A DNA stretch of 64,000 bases from Lishizhenia tianjinensis. Its GTDB lineage: Bacteria > Bacteroidota > Bacteroidia > Flavobacteriales_D > Crocinitomicaceae. The notes beneath the pieces are model-generated. The model did not search any database. It saw nothing but the letters and a program-made list of their open reading frames with translations, and was not told where the DNA came from. The stretch covers positions 1-64,000 of the forward strand of contig CALQIX020000021.1 of NCBI GenBank assembly GCA_943330745.2. The letters are read 5' to 3'. This document shows, piece after piece, positions 40,262-63,524 of this stretch. The translations under genes were made by a program, and so were the position numbers. Each line of letters starts with the position of its first letter. Position 1 is the first letter of the stretch.

Positions 40262-40316
40262 GTTATCACAAAATAATGGACTTGGTAACGACCAAGCAAA
40301 AAAAATTAAAAGTTTT

Positions 40317-40508: not shown

Positions 40509-40519
40509 CAAAGTAGAGC

Positions 40520-44258: not shown

Positions 44259-45719
44259 TTACAGATTCCTTACTAGATTGGCGTATATATCATTGTATTC
44301 CAAACCGCTAGCTGTTTTTCTCCTGGATAATTGTTTCAATTCTACTAAAGCCCAAAGGACAAACTCCATTAAAAATGGCATGTCAATTTCGGCAACATTT
44401 GGTTGATATTTCAGTATCAGTTCCCTCAATGGTGTAATTGAATTTAAGGCTAACGAATAAGATTCTTGTGTGTCTTCATCTGATAATTCAAAAGCATCAG
44501 CTTCAAAAAACCAATTTAGCACTTCATCGTAAGGTGTTACTTGATCTTGTTTTTTCAGCTTTTCAATTTTTGGAAAATAACTTAGAAAAAGTGTTTTTGT
44601 TGCTTCACTAATCAAATGATTTGCGACGAACGAAGTTCCTTCTTGTTCGCCCTCATATACTAATTCCACTTTTCCGGTAATTGAAGGAATCATTCCAATT
44701 AAATCACTGAAACGAATAGTTGTCTCAAGCTCATTGTTCAATATGGCTCTACGTTCTGCGGTGCTTATTAAGTTTTCATATGCTGTAATACTCATGCGTG
44801 CACTGACGCCGCTTTTATGGTCTATGTATTCACTTTTACGAGCTTCAAAAGAGATTTGTTCAAGAATATCTTTCGCCAATTCTGGAACATAAACGGTGCA
44901 ATCGCGCGTGCCCATTTTTTCAGCCTCTTGGTTGGTGATTTTCTTGGCTGTTTTAATATCTGCAGAATAATGTGTTAGGATTTGAGAGCCTATTCGATCT
45001 TTTAATGGGGTGACAATGCTTCCTCGATTCGTGTAATCTTCCGGATTGGCCGTAAATACAAATTGTAGATCTAACGGAAGACGTAACTTGAAACCACGAA
45101 TTTGAATGTCGCCCTCTTCCAAAATATTGAACAATGCAACTTGAATGCGCGCCTGTAAATCAGGCAATTCATTGATGACAAAAATGCAACGATTGGCGCG
45201 TGGAATCATTCCAAAATGGATAACCCTTTCATCGGAATAGTTTAATTTCAAATTGGCTGCTTTAATTGGATCAATGTCTCCTATCAAATCAGCAATCGTT
45301 ACGTCTGGTGTTGCTAGTTTTTCAAAAAATCGATCTGAACGATGCAACCAAATGATTGGAGTTTCATCTCCCTTTTCTGCTAATAGATCTCGGGCATAGC
45401 GACTTATCGGATTGAAAGGGTCGTCATTCATTTCACTTCCTGCTACAACGGGAATGAACTCATCCAACAAATTCACCATTAAACGTGCAATCCGGGTTTT
45501 TCCCTGACCGCGCAATCCCAATAAATTAATATTGTGTTTGGAAAGTATCGCTCGTTCTAATTGTGGAATCACCGTATGTTCATATCCATGCATGCCAGAA
45601 AAAGTAGCTGTTCCTGACTTTAGTGACTTAATTAAATTGTCTCGAAGTTCTGTTTTGATACTTTTGGAAATATATCCAGATGCTTTCAAAGCACCAAAGG
45701 TGTTGATTGTTGTATTCAT
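44259..45719 (-). CDS. MoxR-like AAA+ ATPase (magnesium-chelatase type)
   Basis: 486 residues. AAA+ fold with Walker A LLGLRGQGKTRIAR at about residue 65-78. The Walker B position reads CIFVINELPDLQARIQ: the usual Asp is Asn, with Glu kept. Sensor 1 is in FVFTANPEDYTNRG, and PLKDRIGSQI is the arginine-finger region. The N-terminal ~60 residues and a C-terminal domain lie outside the AAA core. Four bases from the upstream VWA gene, it is a MoxR/VWA pair, which in other bacteria acts as a chaperone for metal insertion or protein complex maturation. Target unknown. Confidence 0.87.
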   Translation of the reverse strand: MNTTINTFGALKASGYISKSIKTELRDNLIKSLKSGTATFSGMHGYEHTVIPQLERAILSKHNINLLGLRGQGKTRIARLMVNLLDEFIPVVAGSEMNDDPFNPISRYARDLLAEKGDETPIIWLHRSDRFFEKLATPDVTIADLIGDIDPIKAANLKLNYSDERVIHFGMIPRANRCIFVINELPDLQARIQVALFNILEEGDIQIRGFKLRLPLDLQFVFTANPEDYTNRGSIVTPLKDRIGSQILTHYSADIKTAKKITNQEAEKMGTRDCTVYVPELAKDILEQISFEARKSEYIDHKSGVSARMSITAYENLISTAERRAILNNELETTIRFSDLIGMIPSITGKVELVYEGEQEGTSFVANHLISEATKTLFLSYFPKIEKLKKQDQVTPYDEVLNWFFEADAFELSDEDTQESYSLALNSITPLRELILKYQPNVAEIDMPFLMEFVLWALVELKQLSRRKTASGLEYNDIYANLVRNL

Positions 45720-45723
45720 TTTG

Positions 45724-46833
45724 TCAGTTAATTCGTTTTTTTCTATTTGTTTCGTAATCGTGAAAAATCATTTCTCCTAATCCTTTTAATCCTGTGTAGA
45801 ATGCTTTTCCTTTATTTGATTGAGTAAATTGCTCCACAAACGATTGCAAATAGGGATCTTGCGCAATCATAAATGTGGTTATTGGAATATGCATTTTACG
45901 AGCTTGTGCCGCCATATTATAACACTTTTCAACAATCATCTCATCTAATCCATTGCTATTTTTATAATATTGTCCATCCGGCAAGCGAAGGCAACTTGGT
46001 TTACCATCCGTAATCATGAAAATTTGTTTGTTGGTATTTCGCTTGCGCCGTAGAATGTCCATGGCTAATTCCAACCCAGCAACAGTATTTGTATGGTAGG
46101 GACCAACCTGTAAATAGGGGAGGTCCTTTATTTTAATTGGCCAGGAATCGTTTCCAAAAACAATCACATCCAAAGTGTCTTTTGGATAAGAGGTGGTTAT
46201 TAACTCTGCAAGCGCCATTGCTACTTTTTTCGCTGGTGTGATGCGGTCTTCGCCATATAAAATCATGCTATGGCTAATGTCAATCATTAAGACGGTACTC
46301 ATTTGCGATTTGTGGTGCGTATCTTCCACAACTAAATCTTGTTCCGTTAGGTGAAAATCTCCAATGCCATTATTTATTTGAGCATTTTTTAAACTTTCAG
46401 TAATGGATATATTTTCAATGGAATCGCCAAATTGAAAATCACGAAATTCACCAGTCAATTCATCTCCTTGACCACTTTTTTTAGACTTATGATTTCCCGT
46501 TCCACTTTTTCTGATTTTCCCAAAAATTTGATCGAGCGCATTTTTTCGCAATACACGCTCTGTTTTAGCAGTAATAGCTAATTGACCATTTCCATCCGGT
46601 TGAATCTCTTCCCGCAAGTAGCCTTTCTTCTTAAGATCTTCAATAAAATCATCCATGGTATATTCATCGTTGGTTAATGAATATTCTTTGTCCAAAACAT
46701 TAAGCCACTCAAGCGCTTCATCGACATCTCCTGATGTGTGCGTAATGAGTTCACTAAAAATATCAAACAACCTATCAAAATTTGATTGATCAGGTGATTG
46801 ATACGGAGTAAAGATATAGCCTGATTTTGGCAT
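45724..46833 (-). CDS. VWA-domain protein (partner of the MoxR ATPase)
   Basis: 369 residues. N-terminal helical part (SNFDRLFDIFSELITHTSGDVDEALEWL), Gly/Lys-rich linker with SGTGNHKSKKSGQGDELTGE, then a VWA domain from about residue 175. The MIDAS motif is VLMIDISHSM (DxSxS), with later Thr in AGLELAMDILRRKRNTNK-type helix and MITDGKPSC (the metal-site Asp). It is probably cytoplasmic, with no TM or signal. The AAA+ gene follows after four bases, so they are translated together. Domain order resembles BchD/CoxE-like partners. Confidence 0.87.
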   Translation of the reverse strand: MPKSGYIFTPYQSPDQSNFDRLFDIFSELITHTSGDVDEALEWLNVLDKEYSLTNDEYTMDDFIEDLKKKGYLREEIQPDGNGQLAITAKTERVLRKNALDQIFGKIRKSGTGNHKSKKSGQGDELTGEFRDFQFGDSIENISITESLKNAQINNGIGDFHLTEQDLVVEDTHHKSQMSTVLMIDISHSMILYGEDRITPAKKVAMALAELITTSYPKDTLDVIVFGNDSWPIKIKDLPYLQVGPYHTNTVAGLELAMDILRRKRNTNKQIFMITDGKPSCLRLPDGQYYKNSNGLDEMIVEKCYNMAAQARKMHIPITTFMIAQDPYLQSFVEQFTQSNKGKAFYTGLKGLGEMIFHDYETNRKKRIN

Positions 46834-47180: not shown

Positions 47181-50100
47181 TTATCGAATTAGATTTACAT
47201 GCCCAACAAATTTTTTGATTTCTTGATTCTGTAGCATTTCAACATCTATTACCCATGTGTAGGTGCCAATTTGACATTTTCTACCCGCAGGACCATAAGT
47301 ACCATCCCATCCAACGTTTTCATCGTGTGATTCAAAAACCAGTTCACCCCATCTATCGAAGATATACAGATTATAAGTTCCTTTTTTAACGCCAGCAGTT
47401 AAGATTGGCAAGAAAACCTGATTTTTTTCATCGTCGTTTGGTGTGAAACTATTCGGGACATAGTATATTAAATCTTCGAAAATATGAATATTCAATGCAG
47501 CTGTATCTATACAACCTATTTGATTATAGGCCGTTAAAACAACTGTATAGTCTCCGGCTTCTCCAGGGAAAGTATGAATTGGATTTTCTGCAAAACCAAT
47601 CGTTCCATCAGCAAAATCCCATTCATAAGATGTTGTGTTTTGAGATTCATTGTAAAAATGAACTAAAGGTTCCATTGCGCTTAATGTGATTTGATCTGCA
47701 CTAAAACTTGCAATAGGGCTATCATACACACAAGCGATGTTGGAATATGTTTCTGTTGAAGCACATCCTTGATTATTAGTAACCGTAAGGCTGATATCGT
47801 AACATCCAGCCTGATCAAATTGATACCCTACTGTTCCAACTTGTTGAGTGGTTTGACCATTACCAAAGTTCCATAAATAATCCCAAGTAGGATTATAAGT
47901 TGAAGCAGTATAAATCACGTCTAAAATATCACAACCTACTGAATCTGAGTAACTAAAATGAGCATCGGGAGATGGGGAAATAATAATTGGGTGCATAATA
48001 CTGTCTTTACATCCTGTTAGTGGATTTGTTGCATTTAATTGCACATTAAAGCTTCCAACTGAAGGGAATTGATGGGTTGGATTATTTAAATAGGAAAGCG
48101 TTCCATCTCCAAAACTCCAGATGAAATCCAATATCCCAATCGAATTATTTTGAAAGGATATCGGATTTAAATCACAATAAGGAGGATTGTTTGCCGCAAA
48201 ATCAACGGAGGGTAATGGATTAACATAAACTGAAATTATTGAGTTGGGACCAGCGCATCCAAACGGATTAGAAATTGGTATAACTTGATACTGAACAACT
48301 TCTTGTACGTTTCCTAATTGAACCAAATTGTCCAAGATAAAGGAGCTTGTTTGCAATGGATAAGACGTTTCATTATATACGTTCAAAGTTGGTATTGCTT
48401 GCCATTCAAATGTACTCGGAATATCAGATTGTAATGTTATGTTTGTATTTTCCCCTGAGCAAATAGTAACATCATTATTAAGAACATGAGGCATAGGGTG
48501 TATTGTAACATCAATCGTGCCTACTTGACCAAAACAGGTCGTTGTATTATTAATAAAGGCAGGCGTAACCGTTATAGTTGATTGTATGGTAGCAGTGGTC
48601 AAATTATTTCCAAAAAAAGAAGGGATATCTCCTGTTCCATTAGCTCCTAAACCAATTGCCGGATTTGAATTCGTCCATGTAAATGTGGTGCCACTTATTG
48701 GTCCTGCAATTTGAATTGGATTGGAAAGTGAACCGTGACAAAGGGTTATATCAGGTAAAGGATAAATGGATGGTTCTGGGTTAACGGTAATAGCAAACTG
48801 ATCTACAGTTCCTATGCAGGAAACGTTATTATTGGTGAAAATCGGTTTTACATCAATAATTGCAGAAATAGGAGATGAAGTTGGATTAGTGGTGGTAAAT
48901 GCAGGTACTGAATTCGATCCCGTTGAGGATGGCAAACCAACTGCAATACTTGTTGAAGTCCAATTATAGACAGCTCCCGTCACATTACCCGTGAAAAGAA
49001 TTGGTGGATTTGCATAATTATGGCACAAATTAAAATCGGGCGTCGGATCAACTATTGGTAGTGGATTTACAAATACAGTAATCGGAATAATTGGGCTTGA
49101 ACATCCATTTACTGTTGAGGTTCCAATAACATGATAGGTTACTTCTTCAACATTACCTGTAGGATTTAATAAAACATCATTGATTATAGATGAGGTTGTA
49201 ATGGTGGTAGTTTCATTTAAAACATTTAGTGACTGATCTGCATACCAGTTAAAAGTGACATTTGTATTTGCTACTAAATTTAGATTAACATTGTCATTAC
49301 TACAAATTGTTAATGTATCTGTATTTAATAAAGCAAGAGGTGGTTTAACAATCACTGTAATTGTTTGTGCAGCCCCAATACAATTGCCTTGAATAGAAGT
49401 TGGGAATACCGAATATATAACTACTTGATTAGTGTTAGCATTATTAATCAATACATCCCCAATAACATTATTGGTGTTTGTAAGCAAAGACTCACCAGTT
49501 ATATTTGGATTGTTTATTGATACAAACCATTGAAAGTTTGACGGAATATTTGCATTTAAAATAGCATTAACTGGAGATCCGCTGCATATTTCTAAATTGG
49601 TTGGAATTGAAAGAACAACATCAGGTTGAACTTGGGCAATAAATGAAGAATCTGGTCCAATGCATCCTTCCGGAAACGAAGTTGGAGTAATGGTATAAGT
49701 TACAAATTGTGGTGAATTTGATAAATTAGCAAGAGAATCTATTATGAAATTCGAAGTTTGAATTGTAGTTAATTCTCCATTGACATTATTATTAGATGTT
49801 GCACTCCAAGTGAAATTAGCTGGAATATTAGCTCCTATTGTGGTAGCCAAGCTTTCATAATTACATATCACAGTATCATTTATGGAGTTTACATGAGGTA
49901 AAGGATTGATGGTAATGGAGTAAGAGGAGTTGGGGCCATTACACGAGTTCCCTTGAAAAGAATAAACAGGAGTAACTGTGATTGCACTAATATTTGGAAT
50001 AGCAGAAGGATTAACACCCGTGAAACTAGGAACACTATTTAAACCATTCGATACTAATCCAGTGGTTGTGTTGTTGTTTGACCATGAATACGAAGTTCCT

Positions 50101-53100
50101 GTTCCATTTATTTGGGTTGCTGGTACTAGCGATTGATGGCAATAACTTTGGTTCGGGATTGCAGTAACGAGCGGATTAGGTAATACATAATAAGTGAATT
50201 GTTGTGGAGATCCAGGACAAGAAGAATTGGTTGAATTAAAAAATGGTGTTACTGTGATTATACTAGATATTGGACCCGTACTTCCATTTTGAGTAAAGAA
50301 GGAAGCAATAGTATCATACCCATTTTGTGGAACCCCCGTACTTTGGTTTGAACTTGACCAGCTATAGCTATTACCCGTACCACCAAATACCAAATTAGAC
50401 GTGTTAATACCTTCACATGCAAATTGATCTCCAGGATTGTTTACAATTGGCGTTGGATTTATTATATAGGAATATGACTGAGAGCTCCCAAAACAACTGA
50501 CATTGTTAAAAGTAAAAACTGGTGTGACAGTAATTTGTGCTGTTAATGGCGTTGTTCCATTATTTTGTGCATTGAATGATTGAATATCCCCTGTGCCTGC
50601 ATTAGAAAGACCGATAGTAGATATGTTATTTGTCCAATTGTAAATGGTATTAGGAACTGATCCGGTGAATAAGACAGCATTAGTTGTCGTATTATTACAA
50701 ATTGTTTGATTATTTATTGGATTTACAGTTGGCGTAGGATTGACTGTTATCGAAAAGTTAGTTGAATTTCCTGGACATGTAATGCCATTAGCTACATATT
50801 GGGGAGTCACCACAATTGATGAGACAACAGGCAGAGTACTTTGATTGACTGAGTTAAAAGAACCTATTGAATTACCATTACCGTTAGTGATTAAACCAAT
50901 CGTTGTGTTATTATTTGTCCAAATATAGGTTGTGCCTGTTCCCGCAAAATTGATGATTTGAGTATTGGAGTTATTACAATTTGTAATGTCATTAATAGGC
51001 GAAATAACAGGTGTTGGATTAACTGTAAGGGTCATTTGTTGAGGTGTACCTTGACAACTTAAGCCAGCATTGGTATAAACAGGTGTTGCACTTATTGTAG
51101 ATACTAGAACATTTGATGAACTTGGATTATCAACGATAAAACTTGCAATATTACCAATACCAGATGCCGCTAAATTAATTGCAGGTGAATTATTTGTCCA
51201 CGAATACGAAGTTCCATTACCAGAAAAATTAATCGGATTGGCCGTATTTCCATCACAAAGCACTTCTGAGTTCAATGGAGACAATTGAGGAGTAGGATTA
51301 ATCGTAATAGTGAATGATTGTCCAACTCCCGGACAACTTGCAGTTCCCCCCGTAAAATTCGGTGTAATAGCAATAGTTGCAACCACTGGAGTAGGAGAAG
51401 TATTAATTGCATTAAATGCTTGAATATTACCGATCCCTGTAGCACCAATGCCGATTGATGGATTGTCATTTGTCCACGAATAAGATGTGCCATTTCCGGA
51501 AAAATTAACACCGCTTGTTAGTGTATTATTACAAACAACTTGATCTGTCGGGTCCAATAGCGTTGGAGTTGGATTAACAGTTATCGTGAAGTTTTGTGAA
51601 TTACCTGAACAGCTAACATTGTTACTTAAGAATTGAGGGGTAACAGCTATTTGAGCATTTATTGGAGACGCTCCATTATTTGTTGCAACGAATGAATTAA
51701 TTGTCCCATTGCCATTAGCAGAAAGAGAAATAGAAGGATCGCTATTGGTCCATGTATATGATGTACCAGTACCTGAAAAAACAATCTGGGATGTTGGTGC
51801 ACCATTACAAACGGTTTGATTAAATGGAGCATTTACTATTGGTGTCGGATTAACGGTTATGGTAAAAGAAGTGGTTGCTCCTGGACATGCAATTGAATTA
51901 TTCGTGTAAATTGGCGTTGCTATAATCGTGGAGATAATATCATTTTGATTACCGCTATTGGTTGCTGTAAAACTAGTAATATTCCCTGTGCCTGAAAGCG
52001 CTAATCCGATATTAGGGTTGTCATTGGTCCAATTATATGAAGTTCCAGTTCCAGAAAAATTAACTGAACTTGTTTGGGTATTATTACAAACAACTTGATT
52101 CGTTATGCCATTAATTAATGGTGTTGGATTTACTGTAATTGCAAAATTTACATTATTTCCAGTACATGTAACACCTGAATTTAAAAAGGTTGGTGTAACT
52201 GAAATTGTTGCGTTAGTTGCAGTAGTTCCTGTATTTACAGCATTAAAAGGTGATATGGCTCCAGTGCCTGAAGATGATAATCCAATAGAAGGATTACTAT
52301 TATTCCATGAATAGGCTGTACCCGTTCCTGTAATTGGAATAGACGAAGTGGATGCACCGTTACAAAATGTAGCATTAGCAATCGGATTAACCAATGGAAT
52401 AGGGTTAACGGTAATAGTAAAGTTTTCACTCGCTCCAGGACATGTTGTGTTATTGAAAGTATATTGTGGAGTAATAGTAACTGTTCCCGTTACAACTGAA
52501 TTTGTTCCGTTAATAACCGAAAAAGCATTGATGTTTCCTTGTCCTGAATTTGCCAAACCTATTGAAGGTGTATTATTTGACCATGTATAGGATGTCCCTG
52601 TACCACTAAAAATTACAGGAGATGTTGTTGTATTATGACAAACTACTTGATCACTTGGGTCTATAACTATTGGAGTAGGGTTTACAGTAATCGTATAAGG
52701 AGTTCCTCCTCCAGGACAAGTTAAATTCCCACCCGTAGTTGCATTGGCTACTAATTGAATGATTTGTGGGGTAGAACTTGAATTTATTAGGTTGAAGGAA
52801 GGAATTGTTGAACCACCACTAGTTGCCACAAATCCCGAAATACTAGACGGTATAGTAACTGAATTCCATGTAATTACTGCTCCTGAAGTTGGTGAACTAA
52901 TTGTAACTGAAGAATTGTTGTTTTGTGAGCAAATGGTTTGATTTGATAAGTCAAAATTAACCAATGGAGTAGGATTTACAGTAATTGTGAAGTTCTGAGA
53001 AGAACCAATGCATGCTACATTATTGTATGTATATTGAGGGGTTACATTGAATAATGCAATGATAGGATTTGTAGAATTGTTTACACCTGTAAATGATGGA

Positions 53101-56100
53101 ATTGTTCCTGATCCACTATTGGTCAAACCTATTGAAGGTGTATTATTCGTCCAGTTAAAAATAGAATTCGGAACATTACCACTAAATCCGACAGATGTTG
53201 AGGGACTTCCGTTACAAATAACTTGATTCGCAATTGGGTTTACAGTTGGTGTTGGATTTATTGTTATGTCAAAAACTTCATCTGTTCCGATGCAACTTAA
53301 CCCATTTCCACTATATGTGGGAGTTACAGAAATGGAGCTTGTGATAGATTGGACACCTCCATTTGTAGGTATAAAAGATGCAATATTTCCTATCCCGTTT
53401 GACGATAAACCAATTGACGTATTACTATTCAACCAAGAATACGATGTCGCTGTGCCCCCAAAGGAAATGAGAGTAGAAGCAGTACCATTACAAAGCGTAT
53501 AATCCGGAACCGAAGAGACAATGGGAGTAGGATTTACGGTGATTGTTAATTGCTGGGTGGATCCATTGCAAGTAACATTACTATTTGTAAATTGAGGGGT
53601 GACAGTAATTGTTCCAGTTAAAGGGGATGAATTACTAGGGTTTAACGAAGTAAAGGATGCTATATTTCCTATGCCATTTGAAGCTAATCCAATGTTAGGA
53701 GTATTATTCACCCAAGAAAAAGCAGTACTATTTCCGTTGAATGTGATTGGATTAGTTGATGTCCCATTACATAGTACTTGATTACCTAAAGAACTTAAGG
53801 TTGGTGTCGGATTAACGGTTATTGTAAATGTTTGAGTCACACCCGGACAATTCAAATTTCCACCAGTAAAAACAGGTTGAACGGTAATGGTAGATACTAT
53901 AGGTGAGTTTGTATTATTTTGAGTGTTAAAACTTGTAATATTACCTGAACCTGCAGCTACTAACCCAATTGCTGTATTGTTATTCGTCCAATTGTAAGAA
54001 GAACCGTTTCCGGAGAAAATTACTGAAGTTGTTGGAAGTCCGTTGCAAATAACTTGATCAGATGGGTCTACAACCGAAGGGGATGGGTTTATTGTGATTG
54101 AAAATGTTTGAGGGGTACCCTGACATGATACGGAATTCCCCAGGAATATGGGTGTTACACTAATCTGCCCCGAAAGCGCTACAAGTGAATTATTGATTCC
54201 CGTGAAAGAATTTATCGTCCCGGTTCCTGTCGTATTTAATCCAATTGCATTGTTGCTGTTCGTCCAATTATAGGATGTTCCCGTTCCAGTGAATACAATT
54301 TGGCTAGTGGAAGTTCCATTACAGATAACTTGATTTTGCGGAAGATTTACAATAGGGGTAGGATTTACTGTAATTGTAAATGAAATTGGTGAGCCCGGAC
54401 AAGAAACATTATTATTTGAAAAAATTGGTGTAGCCGTTATTGTGCTAATTAACGGGGTGTTTCCATTATTTGTTGCCGTGAAAATAGGAATATTACCAGT
54501 ACCTGAATTAGCTAGATTTATTCCTGTATCTGAATTTGTCCAACCATATGATGTCCCGGTTCCAACAAATTGAATCGCATTAGTATTTGCGTTGTTACAA
54601 ACAACTTGATTTGCAATTGAATTCACCGCTGATGTAGGGTTTACAATAATTGAAAAAGTTTGTGCTGCCCCTTGGCAAGATAAACCGCTATTTGTAAAGG
54701 TTGGTAAAACGCTAATAGTTCCACTTATTGGATTGTTAGTTGAATTTTGGACGGTAAAAGGATTAATATTACCTGAACCGGTTGCGCCCAAACCAATTAG
54801 GGTATTTGAATTTGACCAATTATACGTTGTTCCTGTTCCAGATATAGAAATTAACTGAGAGGATGAATTATTACAATAAGTTAAATTCGATAGAGAGCTT
54901 ACAATAGGTATAGGGTTTATGGTAAGTGTTAGATTTATCGGTAAACCATTACATGTGGTGTTGTTTAAAATGTATTGTGGAGTCACAACTAAAGTTGATG
55001 TGATAACAGTTGAACCATTATTTATTGTTTGAAAAGCTGCTATATTTCCGTTTCCAGATGCTCCTAGTCCAATAGATGTTGTATTATTTGTCCACGTATA
55101 ATTTGTCGCATTACCACTGAAATTAATGGCCGAACTTAACGTTCCGGCACAAATTACTTGATTTCCGATTGGATCTATCGTCGCTGTTGGATTAACAGTA
55201 ATTGTATAAGGAATTCCGCCTCCTGGACAACTTAAATTACCAGAAGTGGATGCATTAGCGAGAAAGGTAATTGTTTGAGGACTATTAGATGAATTAACTA
55301 AACTAAAAACAGGAATATTCGTATTTCCAGAGGTTGTATTTACCCCTGAAATAGAAGCGGGAACCGATGTCGCTGTCCAATAAATTAAAGCATTTGTTGT
55401 CGTCGATGAAATGGTGACCGGTGCGCTAGATGAATTTGAACAAATAGTTTGATTAGCAATGCTAAAAGATACTGCCGGTGCAGGATTCACGGTGATTGTG
55501 AAACTTTGAACAGCACCAGAACAGGAAGTGATTCCATATTGATAGATTGGTGTAATATTAATCGTTGCGACAATAGGATTACTTGTATTGTTAATCGCTG
55601 TAAAAACTGGAATATTCCCCACTCCTGAATTCGCCAATCCAATATTGGGTTGAGAGTTTGTCCAATTGAAACTTGTAGCATTGCCAGATAAACTTAAGAG
55701 ATTTGAAGTTGAACCATTACATAAAATTTGGTTTGATGGAGCAATTACAGTTGGGCTAGGGTTAATTGTAATTAAAAATGAACTACTTGCACCATTACAC
55801 GTTATTCCTCCTCCTGTATATTGCGACAATACGGAAATAGTAGATGTTATTGGTGATGTGCCTGAATTACTTGCTGTAAATGAAGATATACTTCCTACTC
55901 CTGTTGATCCAAGACCAATGCTAACATTGTTGTTATTCCAAGTATAACTATTTCCACTACCCGAAAAATTAATCACTGAACTGTTTGAATTATTGCATAA
56001 TGTCACGTCAGGTATTATATTAACAGTAGTTGTCGGATTTACAGTAATTGTAAAATTGAGGGTTTGACCGACACAAGTTGAACCTCCTGTAGACAGCGTG

Positions 56101-59100
56101 GGAGTTACTGAAACAATGGAGGATAATGGAGTATTTGAACTAGGGTTAGTTGATGTGAAACCTGGAATGTCTCCAGCTCCACTTGAGCTAAGACCGATAG
56201 ATGTATTGCCATTTACCCAAGAGAAAGTTGTATTTACTGCATTACTACCAAAAACAATTGGATTGGTTAATGAGTTATTACAAATTACCAAGTTCGTTAT
56301 CGGGTTTACAGTTGGAGCAGGAACAACTTGAATATTAAATACTAAAGGGTTTCCTGTACAAGATACACCATTGTAAGTATAGACTGGTGATACGCTAATT
56401 ACACTCGTTATCGAATTATTTGTTGAATTGAGTGCGGTGAAATTAATATTTCCCGTACCTGAGTTTCCAAGTCCAATTACTGCATTAGAATTTGTCCAAT
56501 TGTAGATTACGTTATTTGTAATGGTGGAATTCAACACCAAATTAACAGATGCACCTTGACAATATGATTGACTACTAACAGGTGACATTACAGGAACCGG
56601 ATTTATTGTAACGGTAGCGGTAACAGGAAGTCCAGAACAAGTCTGATTATTAGTAGTTAATGAAGGTGAAACAGTAATAATTCCTTGAATAGGTTGATTT
56701 GTCGTATTTGATCCGATAAAACTTGGAATCGTTCCAGTTCCATTACTACCTAATCCAATAGTATTATTTGAGTTTGTCCAATCAAAAACAGTTCCAACCA
56801 AATTTGAACTAAAATTGATCGGGTTAGATGCGTTACCACTACATAGTGTTTGACTAGGAATAATGGTAGCAACTGGAGTAGGAAGTACTGTTATATTAAA
56901 AGTTCGTGGATTTCCTGTGCAAGTAATTCCTGCATTGGTATAACTTGGCGTAACCGTTATTTGTCCAGTGATAGGGGTATTCGTTGTGTTTGTTGCGTTG
57001 AAAGATAAATTGCCATTTCCTGTTGAACTTAACCCAATATTGGCATTCGTATTTGCCCACTGATAATTGGTTCCTATAATATTTGAAGCAGAAGTAAAAG
57101 CAACATTTATATTTGAATTTGAACAAACTTGATAATCAATGATTGTGTCTAATATTGGTGTTGGATTAATTGTTATACCAAATTGGCCTGCAGTTCCAGT
57201 ACATGTTATATTATTAAAGGTGAAACTTGGAACCACATTTATTGTTGAAACATTTGGTTGATTGGTAGGATTTAAGCCAATAAATGAAGGGATTTGTCCC
57301 AGTCCAGTTAATCCTAAACCAGTGGTTGTATTGTTATTATTCCATGTAAAAACAGTATTTGGTATATTTCCAGTTGGTTGAACAGCTACAGTGGAACTTC
57401 CAACGCATAAACTTTGATTCGCAATTGGATTAACTGTTGGCATTGGGGTAACTGTAATAGTAAAAGATATTGGCGTTCCTGTACACGCAACATTATTGTT
57501 TGTATAAGTTGGGGTTACTGTTACCGTTCCACTAATAGGACTCAACGTAGTATTGGTCGCTGTAAAGAAATTTGATCCAGTGCCTGATGATATCATTCCT
57601 ATAGCGGGATTTGAATTTGTCCAAACGTAAGTAGTCCCCAAACCAACAATAGGGTTTAAACTGGAATATAAATTCGATCCCGTACTCGTAGCACAAATTG
57701 TATATGAATTAAGCGGAATAATATCAGGAAGCGGATTAATCGTAATTGCAAATGAAACTGGATTTCCAGGGCACGAAACCCCATTATTGGTGTAAAAAGG
57801 GGTAGAAATGAAATTGGATGTCAATGGTTGATTTGAATTATTCACTGCCGTAAATGAAAGTCCTGCCCCAGGTGAGCTACTTGTGCCAGATGCCCCGATT
57901 CCAATAGCTGTATTATCATTAGTCCATGAATAGGACATATTTGTCGTAATGTTTGAATTAAAATTAACGGTTGCTGTTGATGCCTCACAAAACACAAATA
58001 ATTGTGGATTATATGGAGTCATTATTGGTTTTGGGTTTACCGTTATCGTATAAGTTGCAGGTGGACCAGCACATGTTACACCATTTAATAAAACACTTGG
58101 TGTTATTGATACTGTTCCGGTGACAGGTGATGTGGTATTGTTGATAGCAGTATATCCAGGGATGCTGTTTGTTGTTCCACTAATTGGTGTTAAACCAAGA
58201 TTGGAATTACTTACATTCCATGAATAGGTTGCGCCGGCTACATTGGATGTCAATACATTCGCAGGCACAATGGCTTGAGGACATACCGTTAAGTTGTTCA
58301 AGTTTAACACTTGAGGAGTAGGGTTGACGGTTATTGTAAAAGAAATAGGATTTCCAGAACAATTGTTAGCGGTAGGGGTAATAGTAATTGTTGCAACAAC
58401 AGGAGTAGCGCCTGTGTTTATAGTAGGAAATGCAGAGATGTTTCCTGTTCCACTAGCACCTAAACCAATTGAAGTAGTTGAATTAGCCCAGTTGTATTGG
58501 GTTCCTGAAACTATGGGGCTACTTGAAAAGTTAACAGCATTTGTTTGCGTTCCAGCACACTTTACTTGATTTGGGATTGCAGAAACACTTGGCGTAGGAT
58601 TTACGGTATAGGTATATGTAGTAGGAGTACCGTTACACCCGTTGGCATTAGGTGTTATAGTTATTGTTGATGTTATAGGATTCGCAGATGTATTGATTGC
58701 ATTAAATGATGAGATATTTCCTGATCCAGAAGCTGCCAAACCTATCGATGAATTAGAATTTGTCCAGGTAAACGATGTACCGGAAACACCAAATGCTGAA
58801 CTAAACGAAACTGCTGTTGTTGCCGTTCCATTGCAATTTATTTGATTAGCAATCCCATCTACAGTTGGAATTGGTTTAACGGAAATTGTAAAACTTAATG
58901 GGCTACCAGCGCAACCGTTCGCAGTAGGTGTTACAGTGATAGTAGCAATGTTAGAAGAATTGGATGTGTTTTGTCCAGTAAAAACAGGTATTGAGCCATT
59001 TCCAGAAGCGATTAAACCAATAGATGGATTCGAGTTAGTCCAACTGTAAGTAGTTCCCGCTGTGGCAGAGCCAGGGTTAACTAGGGTTGAATTTGCTCCT

Positions 59101-62100
59101 GCACAAATTGATTGATTCGGAATACTATTGATTACCGGTGTTGGCTTTACTGTAATTGTAAAACTTCCTGTAATTCCATTACATCCGCCAGCAACAGGAG
59201 TTATCGTTATTGTTGAAACGAGGTTAGTATTCCCATTATTTACAGCAGTAAATGAATTGATATCTCCAGTTCCGCTTGAAGCTAAACCCGTTGATGTAGT
59301 ATTATTCGTCCAATTAAAGATTGTTCCTGCCACATTTAATGCAGATGAAAAAATTACAGGATTTGTCAATCCACCATTACAAATAACTTGGTTAGCAATA
59401 GCATCCACTGTAGGCCGAGGATTCACGGTTATTGTAAACGAAATAGGCAATCCTGGGCAACCATTGAATGTAGGAGTTACCGTAATGGTGCCAGAAATAG
59501 CTGAATTAGAAGTGTTTGTGGTCAAAAAGGAGGGGATTGTAGCATTATTTCCTGATGCACCTAATCCAATCGCTGTATTTGAATTAACCCAACTAAATGT
59601 AGTATTTAACACGGAACTGGAAAAGGTAATAAGAGTTGTATTTGATCCAGCGCATACCGTTTGATTAGTAATAGGAGAAATCACCGGAATTGGTTTTACC
59701 AAAATTGTAAAGCTTTGCGATGCTCCTGAGCACCCATTGGCAGATGGTGTCACTGTTATGGTTGCTGTTCCCGCGCCAGTAGTTGTGAAAGCATTTATAT
59801 CTCCCGTTCCACTAGCAGCTAAACCAATAGAAGTACTTGTATTTGTCCAATTAAAAACGGTTCCACTGACGTTGGTGGGAGAGGTGAAAACCACCGCATT
59901 TGTGGTCGCTCCCATACAAATTGTTTGATCAGCAGGATCAGCAACTGTTGGCATAGGTTTTACCGTAATGCTGAAAGTTTGAGGCGTGCCAGCACAAGTT
60001 AACCAAAACGGAGTAACAGTAATAGTTGCAACAACGTTTGAATTTGTATTATTTGCGGGAGTGAAAGAAGGAATTGAACCTGTTGATGCTGCGCCAAGAC
60101 CTATGCTTGTGTTATTGTTGGTCCAAGAAAATGTAACTCCTGATGATGGATTACTAACAAACGAAATGGTGGGTTGAGCAATCCCAGGACATAAAACTAA
60201 ATCTGCCGGATCAGTAAGGGTAACATTAGGATATAGGGTAACCGTTATCGTTTGAGTTTTCGTACAAGATCCTAATGCGGGTATGGAGGTAGCGTTTACC
60301 GTATAAGTAACCGTTTGAACTGAATTGGTAAGGTTTACTAATTGATCATTGATAATTCCTCCATTTTGAAGGGTTGTACTTTCTCCTGATACATTGGGAT
60401 TTGATGTTGCAATCCAAGTATATGTGGATGAAACATTCGTCGTAATATTGACTCCTAAAGTCGCTCCACTACACAATGTCGCCGTAGTTGGATTTGTGAA
60501 ATTCACTTCGGGATAAACTGTTACAACTTGAGTACACGTTGAGGTACATGATTGAATATAAATGTTTGAAAGTGTTCCCATTAGTGGTGTTGTTCCTCCT
60601 GATGCTATGTATGAAATACTAGAAGCTGTTACGGCTGTTACCGTATAAATCCCGCCACTACCAATACTTCCGGTGCCATTTGTTGCATAAATGATCGAAC
60701 CTACGGAAATCCCTGCTGTACTACATAGGCCGGTAATGGTTGCAGACCAATTGCCATTTCCAAGATTTGTAATCGGCCCAACAGTTCCGGTGATAGACCG
60801 TTTAATATTCGTTATTGAACCTGCAATTGGTGCTGTTCCACCTGAGGCCGAATAGGTAATTGTAGTTGCAGTAACGCTTGTTACTGTGTATGTACCTCCC
60901 GTACCAATGCTTCCTGTGCCAGGCGTTGCACTAATAATTGTACCAGGGAATACTCCTGCTGTACTTGTCAAGCCAGTAATTGTAGCGCTCCAATTTCCGG
61001 GTGTTGTGCTCGTAATTGAACCAACCGTTCCAGTTAAACTAATAGTGGTGGGACAAGTCTGCAAAGTGGTTGAAAAAGGAATTGTTGGTGCAGCGGGTTC
61101 CATCGGTATTACATTTAAACCAACTGTAAATGTTTGGGCTGTTGTCGTAGTATTTGTAAAATTCAGGGTCGGATTTTGAATAGTATTCGAAGATATAGTT
61201 GCAGTGGTTCCTGTAATTGGATTCGAAATCGTCCATACATAATTTAAAGGAACCGGACTTCCATTACATGTTGGAGCGACAGATGAATTATTGATATTTA
61301 CTGCCAAAGGCGAACAACCATTTTGAGGATTCACTGTAAACTGGCAAATAGGAGGGGTGATTACGCAAATGTGCCTAACTTTAGTTTTTAAACCACATGA
61401 ATTGTAATATGTTTGTGATATTGTGTAGTACCCGGAGGTTATAAAATTGATTCCTATTGAGGATGATCCGTTATCTGTATAGTCTGGTAGTCCCATACCA
61501 TCTATATAATTTGGATTGTATGCCCCAAGATTGCCTGAAGTAAGATTGAAGTTTGTACCCATAACTCCTCCGGTAATTGTCCAATAAAATTTTCCTTCAG
61601 AGGTACAATCGTAAGGAGGTGAGGATCCAATTACATTTCCGGAAATACCGGTATTGAAAGCGGTAATTGTTTGACCTACACAAATTGTAGAATCGGTAAC
61701 CGTAAAATCTGCAACAGGTGTATTACTTACTGTAATTGGTGAAACGGAACTAGATGTTTGACCACAGAAATTTTGAGCGGTTACTTTGGCGTAGAAAGTA
61801 TTAGATGGATACAATCCTCCAGGATAACTAGCACCACATGAAGTGCTATTGTAGATGTGAATAACTGTTGTATCATTAATAATTACAGGGAATATACTTG
61901 AGTTAGTAACATCACTATAAGTTAAAGTATATGTTGTTCCCGGAGGATTTGCTTGCCCTGATGGCGCTATTGGGTCAATACTAATAGATAGTGAGTCTCC
62001 TAAACATAAACCTATTGAGTTGCTTGTTCCTAATGAGACGTATGGATTGGATCCTGAATAAACATTGACAGTAACGTTTTGATAACAACCATTAAAATTT

Positions 62101-63524
62101 GCTGTCATTAACAATGGATTATTTCCATAATTTAAAGATATTGGTGCTCCGTTGGACACTCCAACACCAATAGCAGTAGTTGGGCCTGAATTAAATGAAT
62201 AAGTGTATGTAGTTCCAATAGGATTTGAAGAGGGACCATTATTTATAATCAACGCGCTACTTGTACTAATTCCAGTGCAAATTGCAATTGTATTTGGATT
62301 AGCAGAGGTAGTATTGTAATTTGTATTTCCAACTTTAATTGTCGGTTTTAGGATACTAAGAACTGGAATAGTAATGTTCGATGTACTAGATGGTAGTGAG
62401 CAGTTCCCAATAGGATTGGTAGCAGTAACATTAATTGTATATGTGCCGCCACTACTTAACAAAAAAGTTGGTGTAGCCGTATTCAACCCAGTACTATTAC
62501 CAATAGATGGAGATATCGACCATTGATAATTCATACCAGCTTGAGGTGTAAAACCTGTTGGGGTGAAAGAAACTCCCGAACAACCAGTTGCCGGAATAGA
62601 AAATGTTGGCGTAACTGGATTAAGGTTAATGGTGACATTATCAGTGACCTGACATAGGCCATTGTTTGTTGATGAATATACATTGGGAATTGTTGCTGTT
62701 ACGGTATATGTACCTGCCTGATTTGAGTTAAAAGCACTCAGTGTTGGGCTTAAAATTGTACTTGAGAAACCATTGGGTCCCGACCAGGAATAGGTTGGAG
62801 ATAAGTTGTTTGGAGTACTTGAAAAAGTTGTGGTTAAGGGGTTTGTAGAACCTTGGTTGACACAAAGTGAATTAGTATTTAATATAGCTAGATTTCCTGT
62901 AACTTCTTGTAACGAAACTACATTGGAAGCAACTTGACAATCATTATTTCCAGGACCGTTAAATATCACCAGTCGGCGATAATACATTATTGAATTTATC
63001 GGTCCAGGATTATAAGTGGCGTTTGTTTCACCATTTATATCGTTCCAATTCGTGTTGTCGCTCGAAGATTGCCATTGGTAACTGATATTTGAACCCATTG
63101 ATCCAGGTGTCTCTGTGAAAGCAGGAGGATTAGACCCATCACAGATCATTAAATTGCCACTAATTGTTCCGGGAGATAATTGTAAAACAGTTACCACAAT
63201 GGTGTCTGTAATCGAGGGGCAATTATAATTATTATCAAAATTCACAGTGACCACATAGGTTCCTTGCGTGGAATTGGTTAATGTAAATGAATAATTATCT
63301 GAATTGGCACTAAAATAAACGGGCGTATTATTTAATTCCCAGGTATAATTTGAAATGTCCGAATTATTAACCCCAGATACATTAGCATTTAAATTAACAG
63401 CAGAACCCGAACAAAGTGATAAGTTAGCACCTAAATTAACATCGTCATCATTGCAATTTTGAGTTAATCCGATATTTATTGAACAAAAAAAGAAGACTAG
63501 TAACTTTAAAAACTTTAATTTCAT
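47181..63524 (-). CDS. Giant T9SS type B secreted repeat protein (5447 residues)
   Basis: A 16.3-kb gene. The signal peptide ends near residue 21 (LVFFFCSINIGLTQ). Residues about 25-820 hold Ig-like stretches (e.g. SYQWQSSSDNTNW). An inserted module pair is at 829-993. From about residue 1007 to 5100 lie about 44 modules of roughly 90 residues with the pattern C-N-G ... W-T-N ... I-G-L ... G-x-G-x-I ... C-x-G ... I-T-V-N-P. Three PKD domains follow (FIWSFGDGT, YLWNFGNGQ, YEWDFADGT). Residues about 5354-5447 are the gliding-motility C-terminal domain (PNSFTPNDDEKNQVF, IFDRWGELVFES, WDGTY), a T9SS type B signal. It is probably a fibrous surface adhesin. The two cysteines per module may form disulfides. 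A promoter-like TAAATTTG lies upstream. Confidence 0.95.
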   Translation of the reverse strand: MKLKFLKLLVFFFCSINIGLTQNCNDDDVNLGANLSLCSGSAVNLNANVSGVNNSDISNYTWELNNTPVYFSANSDNYSFTLTNSTQGTYVVTVNFDNNYNCPSITDTIVVTVLQLSPGTISGNLMICDGSNPPAFTETPGSMGSNISYQWQSSSDNTNWNDINGETNATYNPGPINSIMYYRRLVIFNGPGNNDCQVASNVVSLQEVTGNLAILNTNSLCVNQGSTNPLTTTFSSTPNNLSPTYSWSGPNGFSSTILSPTLSAFNSNQAGTYTVTATIPNVYSSTNNGLCQVTDNVTINLNPVTPTFSIPATGCSGVSFTPTGFTPQAGMNYQWSISPSIGNSTGLNTATPTFLLSSGGTYTINVTATNPIGNCSLPSSTSNITIPVLSILKPTIKVGNTNYNTTSANPNTIAICTGISTSSALIINNGPSSNPIGTTYTYSFNSGPTTAIGVGVSNGAPISLNYGNNPLLMTANFNGCYQNVTVNVYSGSNPYVSLGTSNSIGLCLGDSLSISIDPIAPSGQANPPGTTYTLTYSDVTNSSIFPVIINDTTVIHIYNSTSCGASYPGGLYPSNTFYAKVTAQNFCGQTSSSVSPITVSNTPVADFTVTDSTICVGQTITAFNTGISGNVIGSSPPYDCTSEGKFYWTITGGVMGTNFNLTSGNLGAYNPNYIDGMGLPDYTDNGSSSIGINFITSGYYTISQTYYNSCGLKTKVRHICVITPPICQFTVNPQNGCSPLAVNINNSSVAPTCNGSPVPLNYVWTISNPITGTTATISSNTIQNPTLNFTNTTTTAQTFTVGLNVIPMEPAAPTIPFSTTLQTCPTTISLTGTVGSITSTTPGNWSATITGLTSTAGVFPGTIISATPGTGSIGTGGTYTVTSVTATTITYSASGGTAPIAGSITNIKRSITGTVGPITNLGNGNWSATITGLCSTAGISVGSIIYATNGTGSIGSGGIYTVTAVTASSISYIASGGTTPLMGTLSNIYIQSCTSTCTQVVTVYPEVNFTNPTTATLCSGATLGVNITTNVSSTYTWIATSNPNVSGESTTLQNGGIINDQLVNLTNSVQTVTYTVNATSIPALGSCTKTQTITVTLYPNVTLTDPADLVLCPGIAQPTISFVSNPSSGVTFSWTNNNTSIGLGAASTGSIPSFTPANNTNSNVVATITVTPFWLTCAGTPQTFSITVKPMPTVADPADQTICMGATTNAVVFTSPTNVSGTVFNWTNTSTSIGLAASGTGDINAFTTTGAGTATITVTPSANGCSGASQSFTILVKPIPVISPITNQTVCAGSNTTLITFSSSVLNTTFSWVNSNTAIGLGASGNNATIPSFLTTNTSNSAISGTITVTPTFNGCPGLPISFTITVNPRPTVDAIANQVICNGGLTNPVIFSSALNVAGTIFNWTNNTTSTGLASSGTGDINSFTAVNNGNTNLVSTITITPVAGGCNGITGSFTITVKPTPVINSIPNQSICAGANSTLVNPGSATAGTTYSWTNSNPSIGLIASGNGSIPVFTGQNTSNSSNIATITVTPTANGCAGSPLSFTISVKPIPTVDGIANQINCNGTATTAVSFSSAFGVSGTSFTWTNSNSSIGLAASGSGNISSFNAINTSANPITSTITITPNANGCNGTPTTYTYTVNPTPSVSAIPNQVKCAGTQTNAVNFSSSPIVSGTQYNWANSTTSIGLGASGTGNISAFPTINTGATPVVATITITPTANNCSGNPISFTITVNPTPQVLNLNNLTVCPQAIVPANVLTSNVAGATYSWNVSNSNLGLTPISGTTNSIPGYTAINNTTSPVTGTVSITPSVLLNGVTCAGPPATYTITVNPKPIMTPYNPQLFVFCEASTATVNFNSNITTNMSYSWTNDNTAIGIGASGTSSSPGAGLSFTAVNNSNQPLTSNFISTPFYTNNGVSCPGNPVSFAITINPLPDIIPLNSYTICATSTGSNLYSSLNPIVGLGTTYVWTNSNPAIGMISSGTGSNFFTATNTTLSPISGTVTVTPTYTNNNVACTGTPISFTITVTPMPTVNPIANQSLCVGSSTVAVQPTGNIPNTVFTWNNNNTTTGLGLTGLGQIPSFIGLNPTNQPNVSTINVVPSFTFNNITCTGTAGQFGITINPTPILDTIIDYQVCSNSNINVAFTSASNIIGTNYQWANTNANIGLSSTGNGNLSFNATNTTNTPITGQITVTPSYTNAGITCTGNPRTFNITVLPTPVATIIPSQTLCSGNASNPINFSSNLVGTVFDWTNSNNTIGLGSNGTGTIPSFIGSNTTNQPIQGIITVSPSLTTNNQTCSGLPVTATVTINPVPVMSPVSSQSYCQGASVNLVLNSTITNNVIYNWTNSNAVIGLGNSGTGNINFTALNSTNNSITSVISVSPVYTYNGVSCTGNPLVFNIQVVPAPTVNPITNLVICNNSLTNPIVFGSNAVNTTFSWVNGNTSIGLSSSGAGDIPGFTSTNPSSNTPLSSIVSVTPTLSTGGSTCVGQTLNFTITVNPTTTVNIIPDVTLCNNSNSSVINFSGSGNSYTWNNNNVSIGLGSTGVGSISSFTASNSGTSPITSTISVLSQYTGGGITCNGASSSFLITINPSPTVIAPSNQILCNGSTSNLLSLSGNATSFNWTNSQPNIGLANSGVGNIPVFTAINNTSNPIVATINITPIYQYGITSCSGAVQSFTITVNPAPAVSFSIANQTICSNSSSAPVTISSTTTNALIYWTATSVPASISGVNTTSGNTNIPVFSLVNSSNSPQTITFLANASTSGNLSCPGGGIPYTITVNPTATIDPIGNQVICAGTLSSAINFSGNATNYTWTNNTTSIGLGASGNGNIAAFQTINNGSTVITSTLVVTPQYILNNTTCNGLPINLTLTINPIPIVSSLSNLTYCNNSSSQLISISGTGTTYNWSNSNTLIGLGATGSGNINPFTVQNSTNNPISGTISVLPTFTNSGLSCQGAAQTFSIIVNPTSAVNSIANQVVCNNANTNAIQFVGTGTSYGWTNSDTGINLANSGTGNIPIFTATNNGNTPLISTITATPIFSNNNVSCPGSPISFTITVNPTPIVNLPQNQVICNGTSTSQIVFTGTGTSYNWTNSNNAIGLNTTGTGTINSFTGINNSLVALSGQISVTPIFLGNSVSCQGTPQTFSITINPSPSVVDPSDQVICNGLPTTSVIFSGNGSSYNWTNNNTAIGLVAAGSGNITSFNTQNNTNSPIVSTITVQPVFTGGNLNCPGVTQTFTITVNPTPTLSSLGNQVLCNGTSTNPITFNGNSTAFSWVNNTPNIGLASNGIGNIASFTSLNPSNSSPLTGTITVTPQFTNSNVTCNGSTQQLTITVNPTPIVSSVPDYTLCNGTASTLISFGGTATSYSWLNSNTSIGLSSNGIGNIASFIPTNGGVQSITSSISVTPTYSGNGLSCIGTDEVFDITINPTPTVNPIANQVICNGSPSTSVGFSGNVPNSIFNWTNNTPSIGLTNSGSGTIPSFTGVNNSTNPIIALFNVTPQYTYNNVACIGSSQNFTITVNPTPLVNFDLSNQTICSQNNNSSVTISSPTSGAVITWNSVTIPSSISGFVATSGGSTIPSFNLINSSSTPQIIQLVANATTGGNLTCPGGGTPYTITVNPTPIVIDPSDQVVCHNTTTSPVIFSGTGTSYTWSNNTPSIGLANSGQGNINAFSVINGTNSVVTGTVTITPQYTFNNTTCPGASENFTITVNPIPLVNPIANATFCNGASTSSIPITGTGTAYSWNNSNPSIGLSSSGTGAISPFNAVNTGTTATNATISVTPTFLNSGVTCTGNNVNFAITVNPTPLINGITNQVVCNNTQTSSVNFSGTGTSYNWTNDNPNIGLALSGTGNITSFTATNSGNQNDIISTIIATPIYTNNSIACPGATTSFTITVNPTPIVNAPFNQTVCNGAPTSQIVFSGTGTSYTWTNSDPSISLSANGNGTINSFVATNNGASPINAQIAVTPQFLSNNVSCSGNSQNFTITVNPTPTLLDPTDQVVCNNTLTSGVNFSGNGTSYSWTNDNPSIGIGATGIGNIQAFNAINTSPTPVVATIAITPNFTGGTASCPGVGQSFTITINPTPQLSPLNSEVLCDGNTANPINFSGNGTSYSWTNNSPAINLAASGIGNIASFIVDNPSSSNVLVSTISATPVYTNAGLSCQGTPQQMTLTVNPTPVISPINDITNCNNSNTQIINFAGTGTTYIWTNNNTTIGLITNGNGNSIGSFNSVNQSTLPVVSSIVVTPQYVANGITCPGNSTNFSITVNPTPTVNPINNQTICNNTTTNAVLFTGSVPNTIYNWTNNISTIGLSNAGTGDIQSFNAQNNGTTPLTAQITVTPVFTFNNVSCFGSSQSYSYIINPTPIVNNPGDQFACEGINTSNLVFGGTGNSYSWSSSNQSTGVPQNGYDTIASFFTQNGSTGPISSIITVTPFFNSTNSSCPGSPQQFTYYVLPNPLVTAIPNQSYCHQSLVPATQINGTGTSYSWSNNNTTTGLVSNGLNSVPSFTGVNPSAIPNISAITVTPVYSFQGNSCNGPNSSYSITINPLPHVNSINDTVICNYESLATTIGANIPANFTWSATSNNNVNGELTTIQTSNFIIDSLANLSNSPQFVTYTITPTSFPEGCIGPDSSFIAQVQPDVVLSIPTNLEICSGSPVNAILNANIPSNFQWFVSINNPNITGESLLTNTNNVIGDVLINNANTNQVVIYSVFPTSIQGNCIGAAQTITVIVKPPLALLNTDTLTICSNDNVNLNLVANTNVTFNWYADQSLNVLNETTTITTSSIINDVLLNPTGNVEEVTYHVIGTSTVNGCSSPIIPITVFVNPLPIVDPTPDFNLCHNYANPPILFTGNVTGAVYNWTSTSIAVGLPSSTGSNSVPAFTTTNPTSSPISAIIDVKPIFTNNNVSCIGTVDQFAITVNPEPSIYPLPDITLCHGSLSNPIQIAGPISGTTFTWTNSNPAIGLGANGTGDIPSFFGNNLTTATIQSTITVTPAFINNTTTCFGQVGTIDVTIHPMPHVLNNDVTICSGENTNITLQSDIPSTFEWQAIPTLNVYNETSYPLQTSSFILDNLVQLGNVQEVVQYQVIPISNPFGCAGPNSIISVYVNPLPSVDFAANNPPYCDLNPISFQNNSIGILDFIWSFGDGTLSYLNNPTHQFPSVGSFNVQLNATNPLTGCKDSIMHPIIISPSPDAHFSYSDSVGCDILDVIYTASTYNPTWDYLWNFGNGQTTQQVGTVGYQFDQAGCYDISLTVTNNQGCASTETYSNIACVYDSPIASFSADQITLSAMEPLVHFYNESQNTTSYEWDFADGTIGFAENPIHTFPGEAGDYTVVLTAYNQIGCIDTAALNIHIFEDLIYYVPNSFTPNDDEKNQVFLPILTAGVKKGTYNLYIFDRWGELVFESHDENVGWDGTYGPAGRKCQIGTYTWVIDVEMLQNQEIKKFVGHVNLIR
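50459..52970 (-). repeat. Nine-module super-repeat, copy B
   Basis: Starts with the variant module TPLVNFDLSNQTIC (no IGL; ISGF instead) and runs nine modules to QSYSYIINP. Each module is more like the one nine positions earlier (copy A) than its direct neighbours: e.g. the NPSSSN module, the TGGTASCPG module and the VPNTIYNWTNN module match counterparts at the same place in copy A. Length about 2512 bp. Confidence 0.75.
52971..55480 (-). repeat. Nine-module super-repeat, copy A
   Basis: Starts with the variant module PAVSFSIANQTIC (ISGV instead of IGL) and contains in order the modules matching copy B. Shared markers: NPSNSSPL (module 7), TGGNLNCPG (module 6), VPNSIFNWTNN (module 9). Length about 2510 bp. 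Modules upstream at 56330-57990 show weaker matches, as if a third, older copy lay before it. Confidence 0.75.
60549..61040 (-). repeat. Two tandem modules inserted in a loop of the giant protein
   Basis: Residues 829-909 and 910-993: SLTGTVGSITS... and SITGTVGPITN..., each with ATPGTGSIGTGGTYTV-type strands. Roughly 60 percent identical by eye. They sit between TLQTC and CTQVVTVYP and do not resemble the surrounding modules. Confidence 0.75.

Follow-up and report, generated by a model that had tools for sequence, protein, structure and literature searches.

Organization of the locus

We analyzed a window of 64,000 nucleotides of Lishizhenia tianjinensis DNA (assembly GCA_943330745.2, contig CALQIX020000021.1, positions 1 to 64,000 of the forward strand), which covers nearly the whole contig (contig end at 64110). 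The window encodes on its minus strand a giant protein, residues 1002–5099 of which segment into a string of 44 modules (m1 to m44) of 88–100 amino acids (aa) each. Within this string, modules m19–m27 and m28–m36 are best explained as an old tandem duplication of one nine-module block that has kept its register, with recent events in the same register in relatives; we give this reading a probability of about 0.87. The genomes compared are designated by G-numbers, G000 being the genome of the window gene. The features of the locus are as follows.

47181..63524, minus strand: giant open reading frame (ORF), 5447 aa, with an ATG start and no internal stop; colinear with a 5448-aa ORF in G003
60522..63524, minus strand: N-terminal 1001 aa, a signal-peptide-like start (judged by eye) and then PKD-type domains; no match to the giant protein GhpA of Aureispira
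55494..60521, minus strand: modules m1–m18, Ig/PKD_5-like, about 92 aa each (segmentation)
55494..56330, minus strand: m16–m18, where the period-nine pattern continues weakly as part of a third copy (offset-9 residuals)
52983..55493, minus strand: block 1, m19–m27, 2511 bp (identity matrix, shuffles, DNA match)
50466..52982, minus strand: block 2, m28–m36, 2517 bp, in register with block 1 (same tests)
55200..55493, minus strand: m19, the 98-aa variant module that opens block 1; best partner m28 (57% aa identity)
52689..52982, minus strand: m28, the 98-aa variant module that opens block 2; best partner m19 (57% aa identity)
54255..55259, minus strand: first of the two arms that match directly in DNA 2511 bp apart; the second is 51741–52748 (coding sequence, cds, positions 8266–9270 and 10777–11784)
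48228..50465, minus strand: modules m37–m44 (segmentation), of which m39–m41 form a conserved signature that occurs outside the genus too
47184..48227, minus strand: terminal PKD domains and a type B sorting domain of the type IX secretion system (T9SS), from matches to TIGR04131 and PF13585

All 44 modules carry exactly two cysteines, at corresponding places, which would form a disulfide in each. The Pfam family PKD_5 (PF19406) exceeds its 25-bit cut-off in three of four pieces of the ORF (184.4, 59.9 and 164.3 bits), and the weakest score, 59.9 over two stretches, belongs to the piece that holds the blocks. At the C-terminal end of the ORF, Pfam matches are to PKD and CHU_C. The m39–m41 signature is found in 44 of 240 genomes of the family, in 7 of its 24 genera (E up to 1e-40).

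The C-terminal domain is of T9SS type B (TIGR04131, 46.2 bits against a cut-off of 35; PF13585, 53.1 bits against 27). The G000 genome encodes SprA_N (521.6 bits) and 13 PorP/SprF-family genes (TIGR03519) above cut-off, and none of 14 control genomes was positive for either family. PorP-like partners have been proposed to retain type B proteins at the surface (PMC9143113). The window protein itself is predicted to lie on the cell surface. Among the flanking ORFs of relatives, no PorP/SprF gene was found in the ten of 31 scanned. A shorter related ORF of 1237 aa elsewhere in the genome (G000:C18:5894-10179) does have, unlike the window gene, a PorP/SprF-family gene a few kb away at most.

A period of nine modules

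In an all-against-all matrix of the window protein, mean aa identity by offset peaks at nine modules (43.2%, compared with 40.9% at offset 1 and 42.1% at offset 2). The best partner of a module lies nine positions away in 13 of 44 cases, two away in 8 and next door in 1. A preliminary description of this DNA had claimed that likeness is stronger at distance nine than between neighbors, and the matrix bears this out: the stripe at offset nine is present, and adjacent modules are almost never best partners. With row and column means removed, all pairs from m16/m25 to m27/m36 have positive residuals, and the run ends sharply on both sides (m15, −20; m28, −2). The two copies are old, with about 55% aa identity overall and about 55–63% DNA identity per module.

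The same register appears in the DNA, where the longest self-BLAST match falls at an offset of 2511 bp (63.4% identity over 1025 columns). The positions first proposed by eye agree with the segmentation to within about 15 bp. The variant modules without IGL, placed at about 55480 and 52970, start at 55493 and 52982, 2511 bp apart, and the NPS-S modules, placed at about 56330, 53812 and 51297 with a spacing of about 2510 bp, are m16, m25 and m34, which start at 56330, 53819 and 51305 and are spaced by 2511 and 2514 bp. The short likenesses quoted at the time also fall at distance nine in the alignment (VPN..NWTNN in m27/m36, NNTTC in m20/m29 and CPGGG in m19/m28).

Shuffling the order of the modules rarely reproduces the best offset-9 run: 2 of 2000 shuffles reach it for the window protein, 2 of 2000 for G003 and 1 of 2000 for the cross comparison of G000 with G055. 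In G055 alone, a period-five run (1694) outweighs the period-nine run (1165). Because the m19/m28 pair weighs heavily in the single-protein test, we set it to zero in a second test, which used the mean of five lineages (G000, G055, G032, G028, G058) and positions 12–38 only; none of 3000 shuffles reached the observed sum of 503, the highest being 467. In the five-lineage mean, seven of the nine pairs are mutual best partners (m19/28, m21/30, m22/31, which is tied, m23/32, m24/33, m25/34 and m27/36), and m20/29 and m26/35 are not.

The period is one of several patterns in the gene. Excess likeness is also seen at offsets 1–5. In its DNA the gene has repeats of two modules, at offsets of 549 and 555 bp, and outside the module array a short one of 243 bp; Tandem Repeats Finder, with a longest period of 500, did not report the array. 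Of the 44 modules, 26 belong to neither block. The earlier proposal that the gene grew by duplicating a whole block thus holds for m16/17–m36 and fails as an account of the entire gene, in which most other modules have other histories.

Age of the block pair

We compared two groups of two-block genes: group B (G000, G003, G055, G032, G075c, G028, G058) and group A (G008, G022, G037). Most module comparisons used hidden Markov model matches above 15 bits and of at least 85 aa, and modules of other classes in G078, G049, G036, G045, G182 and G239 stood outside them; G190 and G022 were taken from stretches without the whole gene. The first block tree comprised the ten two-block genes and G039, a later one also included both blocks of G176 and, from each of G181, G189 and G190, just the last block, and tree-topology (approximately unbiased, AU) tests used the ten two-block genes.

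Colinearity extends across group B. G003 has all 44 modules in order, 74–99% identical to those of the window protein. The N-terminal part of G055 is different, and from m12 to m44 it is colinear, contains both variant modules and finds its best match in the same-numbered module at 29 of 33 positions. In all seven group-B genes collected over the region, the variant modules are nine apart. Their first blocks form one clade with a support of 100 in the full-block trees, and orthologous blocks are closer to each other than to cross-copies in 21 of 21 pairs in group B and 3 of 3 in group A. Between the groups the proportion is 15 of 21, with margins under 2 points, and 39 of 45 overall. The block duplication is thus most likely older, judged from these sequences, than the split of the seven sampled group-B genomes.

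Copy number, which the preliminary description had suggested comparing between strains, does vary among related genes: the nine-module block is present twice in groups A and B and once, ahead of the m39-like module, in G039 and G189. The 97–99-aa variant recurs at nine-module spacing in both groups and also in G176, a member of the same genus as G181, where two such variants are nine modules apart; in G011 and G052 there is a single variant, and the modules are fewer. Ten modules separate the last variant from the m39-like module in groups A and B, in G039 and, in a second genus, in G176, G181, G189 and G190. Elsewhere this distance is 12 (G225, G235) or 6 (G011, G052), and there is none in G182.

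Divergence between the window gene and G003 is a mosaic (53265–54923 and 47184–49634, with 22–58 fourfold sites per segment there). Identity at fourfold sites is mostly 75–94% in m1–m20 and m27–m39 (m15, 64%). It falls to 45–73% in m21–m26 and, m41 (73%) apart, mostly to 23–49% between m40 and the C-terminal end, a pattern that exchange of tracts with diverged alleles could give.

Recent events in relatives

Two relatives carry copies that are nearly identical in DNA in the nine-module register. In G037 identity is 98.2% over 2197 bp at the nine-module offset; the seven modules that follow the variant are 99–100% DNA-identical between blocks, without a mismatch in cds 12200–13900, and the edges are abrupt, with diverged sequence on either side. 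Over the same tract, the blocks of G008 and G022 are 58–74% identical. G181, from another genus, shows 99.5% identity over 1661 bp at offset 2505.

Recent exchange of several modules at a time is not confined to this register. We surveyed 49 ORFs, fragments and non-orthologous relatives included, for repeats of at least 80% identity and at least 200 bp, dropping overlapping matches. Nine of the 49 have recent internal repeats. Of the 13 repeats retained, 11 span multiple modules, at offsets of 2, 3, 3, 4, 5, 5, 6, 7, 7, 9 and 9; the other two are single-unit and both in G239. Between G084 and G001, the alignment is 92.3% identical apart from a single gap of 473 aa, the length of five modules.

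Several of the surveyed relatives have arrays of their own kind. L046 (G084) and L014 (G001), also giant proteins, belong to a sister type whose period is five modules. L070 (G239, another genus) contains at cds 3845–7821 an 852-bp three-module tandem block with 99.9% identity at offsets 852, 1704 and 2556. L037 (G078) and L038 (G049) are similar in length and have many middle modules of another class; in both, a variant module followed by m39-/m40-like modules occurs twice, five modules apart.

Origin of the block pair

The observed block pair, its age relative to the seven-genome split and the near-identity in relatives would have the following history. In an ancestor of at least the seven sampled genomes, m19–m27 and m28–m36 would have become tandem copies of one 2.5-kb DNA block through slippage or unequal homologous recombination involving modules that are not neighbors, events that a long array of similar modules makes likely. 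If the partners were displaced by nine modules, the exchange would add or remove a whole block while keeping the reading frame and the module phase; each added block would lengthen the stalk that projects the N-terminal part. The copies would then have diverged in the window lineage, and a recent event in the nine-module register would have made long tracts of both copies identical in G037 and G181.

Several observations weigh against this account, at least in its simplest form. One nine-module event gives a stripe of nine pairs and the stripe is 11–12 pairs long, so at least one further step is needed. The two in-register copies claimed by the preliminary description stand, and ahead of them lies a weaker, partial third copy (m16/m17–m18). 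The offset-9 residuals of m16, m17 and m18 are 37, 54 and 59 in the window protein; in the five-lineage mean m17 (40) and m18 (29) hold and m16 is almost gone (5). These extra pairs would be the trace of an older copy ahead of block 1 or of an earlier exchange that reached further. The trees are also weaker in parts: block 2 of group B has a support of 73 in the later full-block tree and 93 in the inner-module tree, block 2 is not monophyletic in the first tree (branch support 39), and a tree of edge modules alone supports block 1 at 62 and block 2 at 67. The AU test rejects one ancient duplication common to groups A and B with no exchange afterwards (p 0.002 with the two edge modules and 5e-5 with the seven inner ones), which implies either repeated duplication of the same block or early homogenization in each group. 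In G181 the variant modules are seven apart and the matching modules nine apart, as if two modules had gone missing from block 1. G037 and G181 are draft assemblies, in which near-identical repeats may reflect assembly error. Finally, no PorP/SprF gene turned up next to the window gene, whose downstream neighbors are VWA and AAA genes and whose upstream side reaches the contig end at 64110.

An alternative within this account, compatible with an old in-register duplication and to our minds somewhat short of even odds, is that groups A and B duplicated the same nine-module block independently, instead of sharing one older event followed by homogenization. The blocks cluster by group, one global split between first and second blocks is rejected, and the single-block genes G039 and G189 fall beside group B in the trees, although such genes can also stem from loss. 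Two duplications of the same length and phase would, however, be a coincidence. At the edge positions (0 and +8), the blocks of G008 and G022 are 54–59% identical in aa, like those of group B (54–62%), and the inner positions are mostly closer (61–77% in G008, 57–70% in G022), as expected from homogenization.

We consider it doubtful that function sets the length of the block. On such a reading, the nine-module block would be a recurrent unit of recombination in a GhpA-like multichain filament with a nine-domain period; only in-register nine-module exchanges would survive, and the blocks would have been repeatedly homogenized in at least two genera.

Selection without any copying, in which a superhelical or binding period of the filament would call for a given kind of module at each ninth position, is very improbable. 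The nine-module spacing of the 97–99-aa variant does recur in both groups and in G176, and ten modules run from the last variant to the m39-like module in several genes of two genera, though not in all. But selection on the protein cannot yield tracts of about 2 kb that are 99–100% identical in DNA and end abruptly, as in G037, or the 99.5% of G181, and positive residuals are found in all nine consecutive pairs, not in one module type.

An assembly artefact or chance likeness among degenerate repeats can be set aside almost entirely: the modules are alike throughout (mean identity about 38–43% at every offset up to 29), so that a few stripes are expected by chance, offsets 1–5 are positive too and the window and its relatives are draft assemblies, but chance or neighbor likeness is contradicted by the offset-9 matrix and the shuffle tests (0 of 3000), two blocks are present in seven separately assembled genes, and the window copies, at about 55–63% DNA identity per module, are too diverged to be an assembly duplication.

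Fold of the modules and likeness to GhpA

GhpA forms a grappling hook, a heptameric filament. An AlphaFold2 model of m22–m24, built with an alignment of 35 overlapping triples of the window, is immunoglobulin (Ig)-like with a predicted local distance difference test score (pLDDT) of 96; a single-sequence structure prediction of m20–m29 (mean pLDDT 37.6) was not used. The four best Foldseek rows for the m22–m24 model are GhpA of Aureispira, with query-normalized template modeling (TM) scores of 0.47–0.56. VIA-align 2 also places eight GhpA entries on top (Z 9.6–11.2), with unrelated Ig chains from Z 9.5 down, tied with the lowest GhpA rows; Ig folds are common. By sequence, GhpA is the only match of the module profile in the PDB at E up to 0.1 (2e-6) and the best match of a C-terminal profile of 16 sequences (5.6e-97, summed over many PKD repeats), a stretch of which (to position 422 of 440) aligns to GhpA 5467–5885, near its end, at 2.7e-6. 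A PHROGs scan of m22–m24 gave one phage tail match (3.6e-5).

It is nevertheless unlikely, in our estimate, that the protein is a true grappling-hook protein, a GhpA ortholog for catching prey. GhpA is its closest solved structure both by sequence profile and by fold, the lengths are similar (5447 and 5898 aa), and the C-terminal profile stretch aligns near the GhpA end. Against orthology, a phmmer search of the N-terminal 1001 aa against the PDB gave nothing at E up to 1, and a seven-sequence N-terminal profile gave no GhpA match at E up to 1, a result in which distant likeness could be missed. When phmmer was run with just the final 630 aa, its matches were PKD domains from proteins other than GhpA; the figure of 5.6e-97 sums many PKD repeats, and TM-scores are just 0.47–0.56, with an unrelated Ig chain tying at Z 9.5. 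VipB (PF05943), the sheath marker of the type VI secretion system (T6SS), was not found in this 99.94% complete genome, in a search that covered this T6SS family; as a control, the family was positive in 1 of 14 genomes, E. coli. As the N-terminal part has no GhpA match and VipB was not found, we take the protein to be, by prediction from sequence and model, a T9SS-exported, GhpA-like stalk, and our claim stops short of hooks and predation.

Comparison with known systems

The multi-module repeats of this family agree with a survey of domain-repeat proteins in general, which found growth by several domains at a time, with a unit of seven in nebulin (Bjorklund et al., 2006; PMC1553488). The window gene resembles the nebulin-type repeats described there in multi-domain duplication mid-array and in a similarity peak at an offset above one; it differs in having nine domains instead of seven and in encoding a bacterial T9SS protein, which therefore has no exons. 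Unlike in nebulin, two relatives here show near-identity in the same register.

With GhpA of Aureispira sp. CCB-QB1 (PDB 9flp, 9flw and others), the window protein shares a giant T9SS-exported chain of Ig-like domains and a similar C-terminal end, and it differs in its unmatched N-terminal 1001 aa and in a genome where VipB was not found. In 9flp, several profile matches recur about every 249 aa (starts 1820, 2069, 2318), which hints at a three-domain higher-order period in the GhpA sequence, not one of nine.

SprB of Flavobacterium johnsoniae, a gliding adhesin, is described in a T9SS article as very large and repetitive, with a type B C-terminal domain (PMC9143113), traits that the window protein shares. 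The SprB repeat family of Pfam was not listed for any of the four ORF pieces at E up to 0.01, and the two may also differ in their surroundings, as the window ORF, on the side that the contig covers, has no PorP/SprF neighbor. Litorilinea aerophila makes GhlA, described as a giant filament of tandem beta-domains with hook-like tips (PMC13319060); by this description it resembles the window protein, but its domains are DUF11 and it comes from the Chloroflexota.

Among the open-access titles and abstract beginnings listed for bacterial surface proteins with higher-order repeats, giants with PKD/gliding C-termini, adhesin repeats subject to gene conversion and homologs of GhpA in Flavobacteriales, none dealt with this case. 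Block-wise growth of domain repeats is already known; this member is traceable across species. It offers a bacterial case, free of introns, for tracing from genome to genome how a giant protein grows in blocks of several domains, with old copies (group B), near-identical copies (G037, G181), single blocks (G039, G189) and a five-module difference (G084/G001) as available stages. Such a series allows unequal exchange to be tested against gene conversion as the driver of such arrays, and the gene points to GhpA-like filaments in a bacterium where the T6SS marker VipB was not found.

Other features of the window

Downstream of the giant gene, genes for an AAA ATPase and a VWA-domain protein occupy 44259–46833; a link to the giant gene is improbable. 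Further along, a 59-bp unit repeated 2.3 times (40316–40509) overlaps the start of a tRNA-Arg gene, with an AbiEii-type toxin gene near (41585–42541), and this region may be a site of element insertion.

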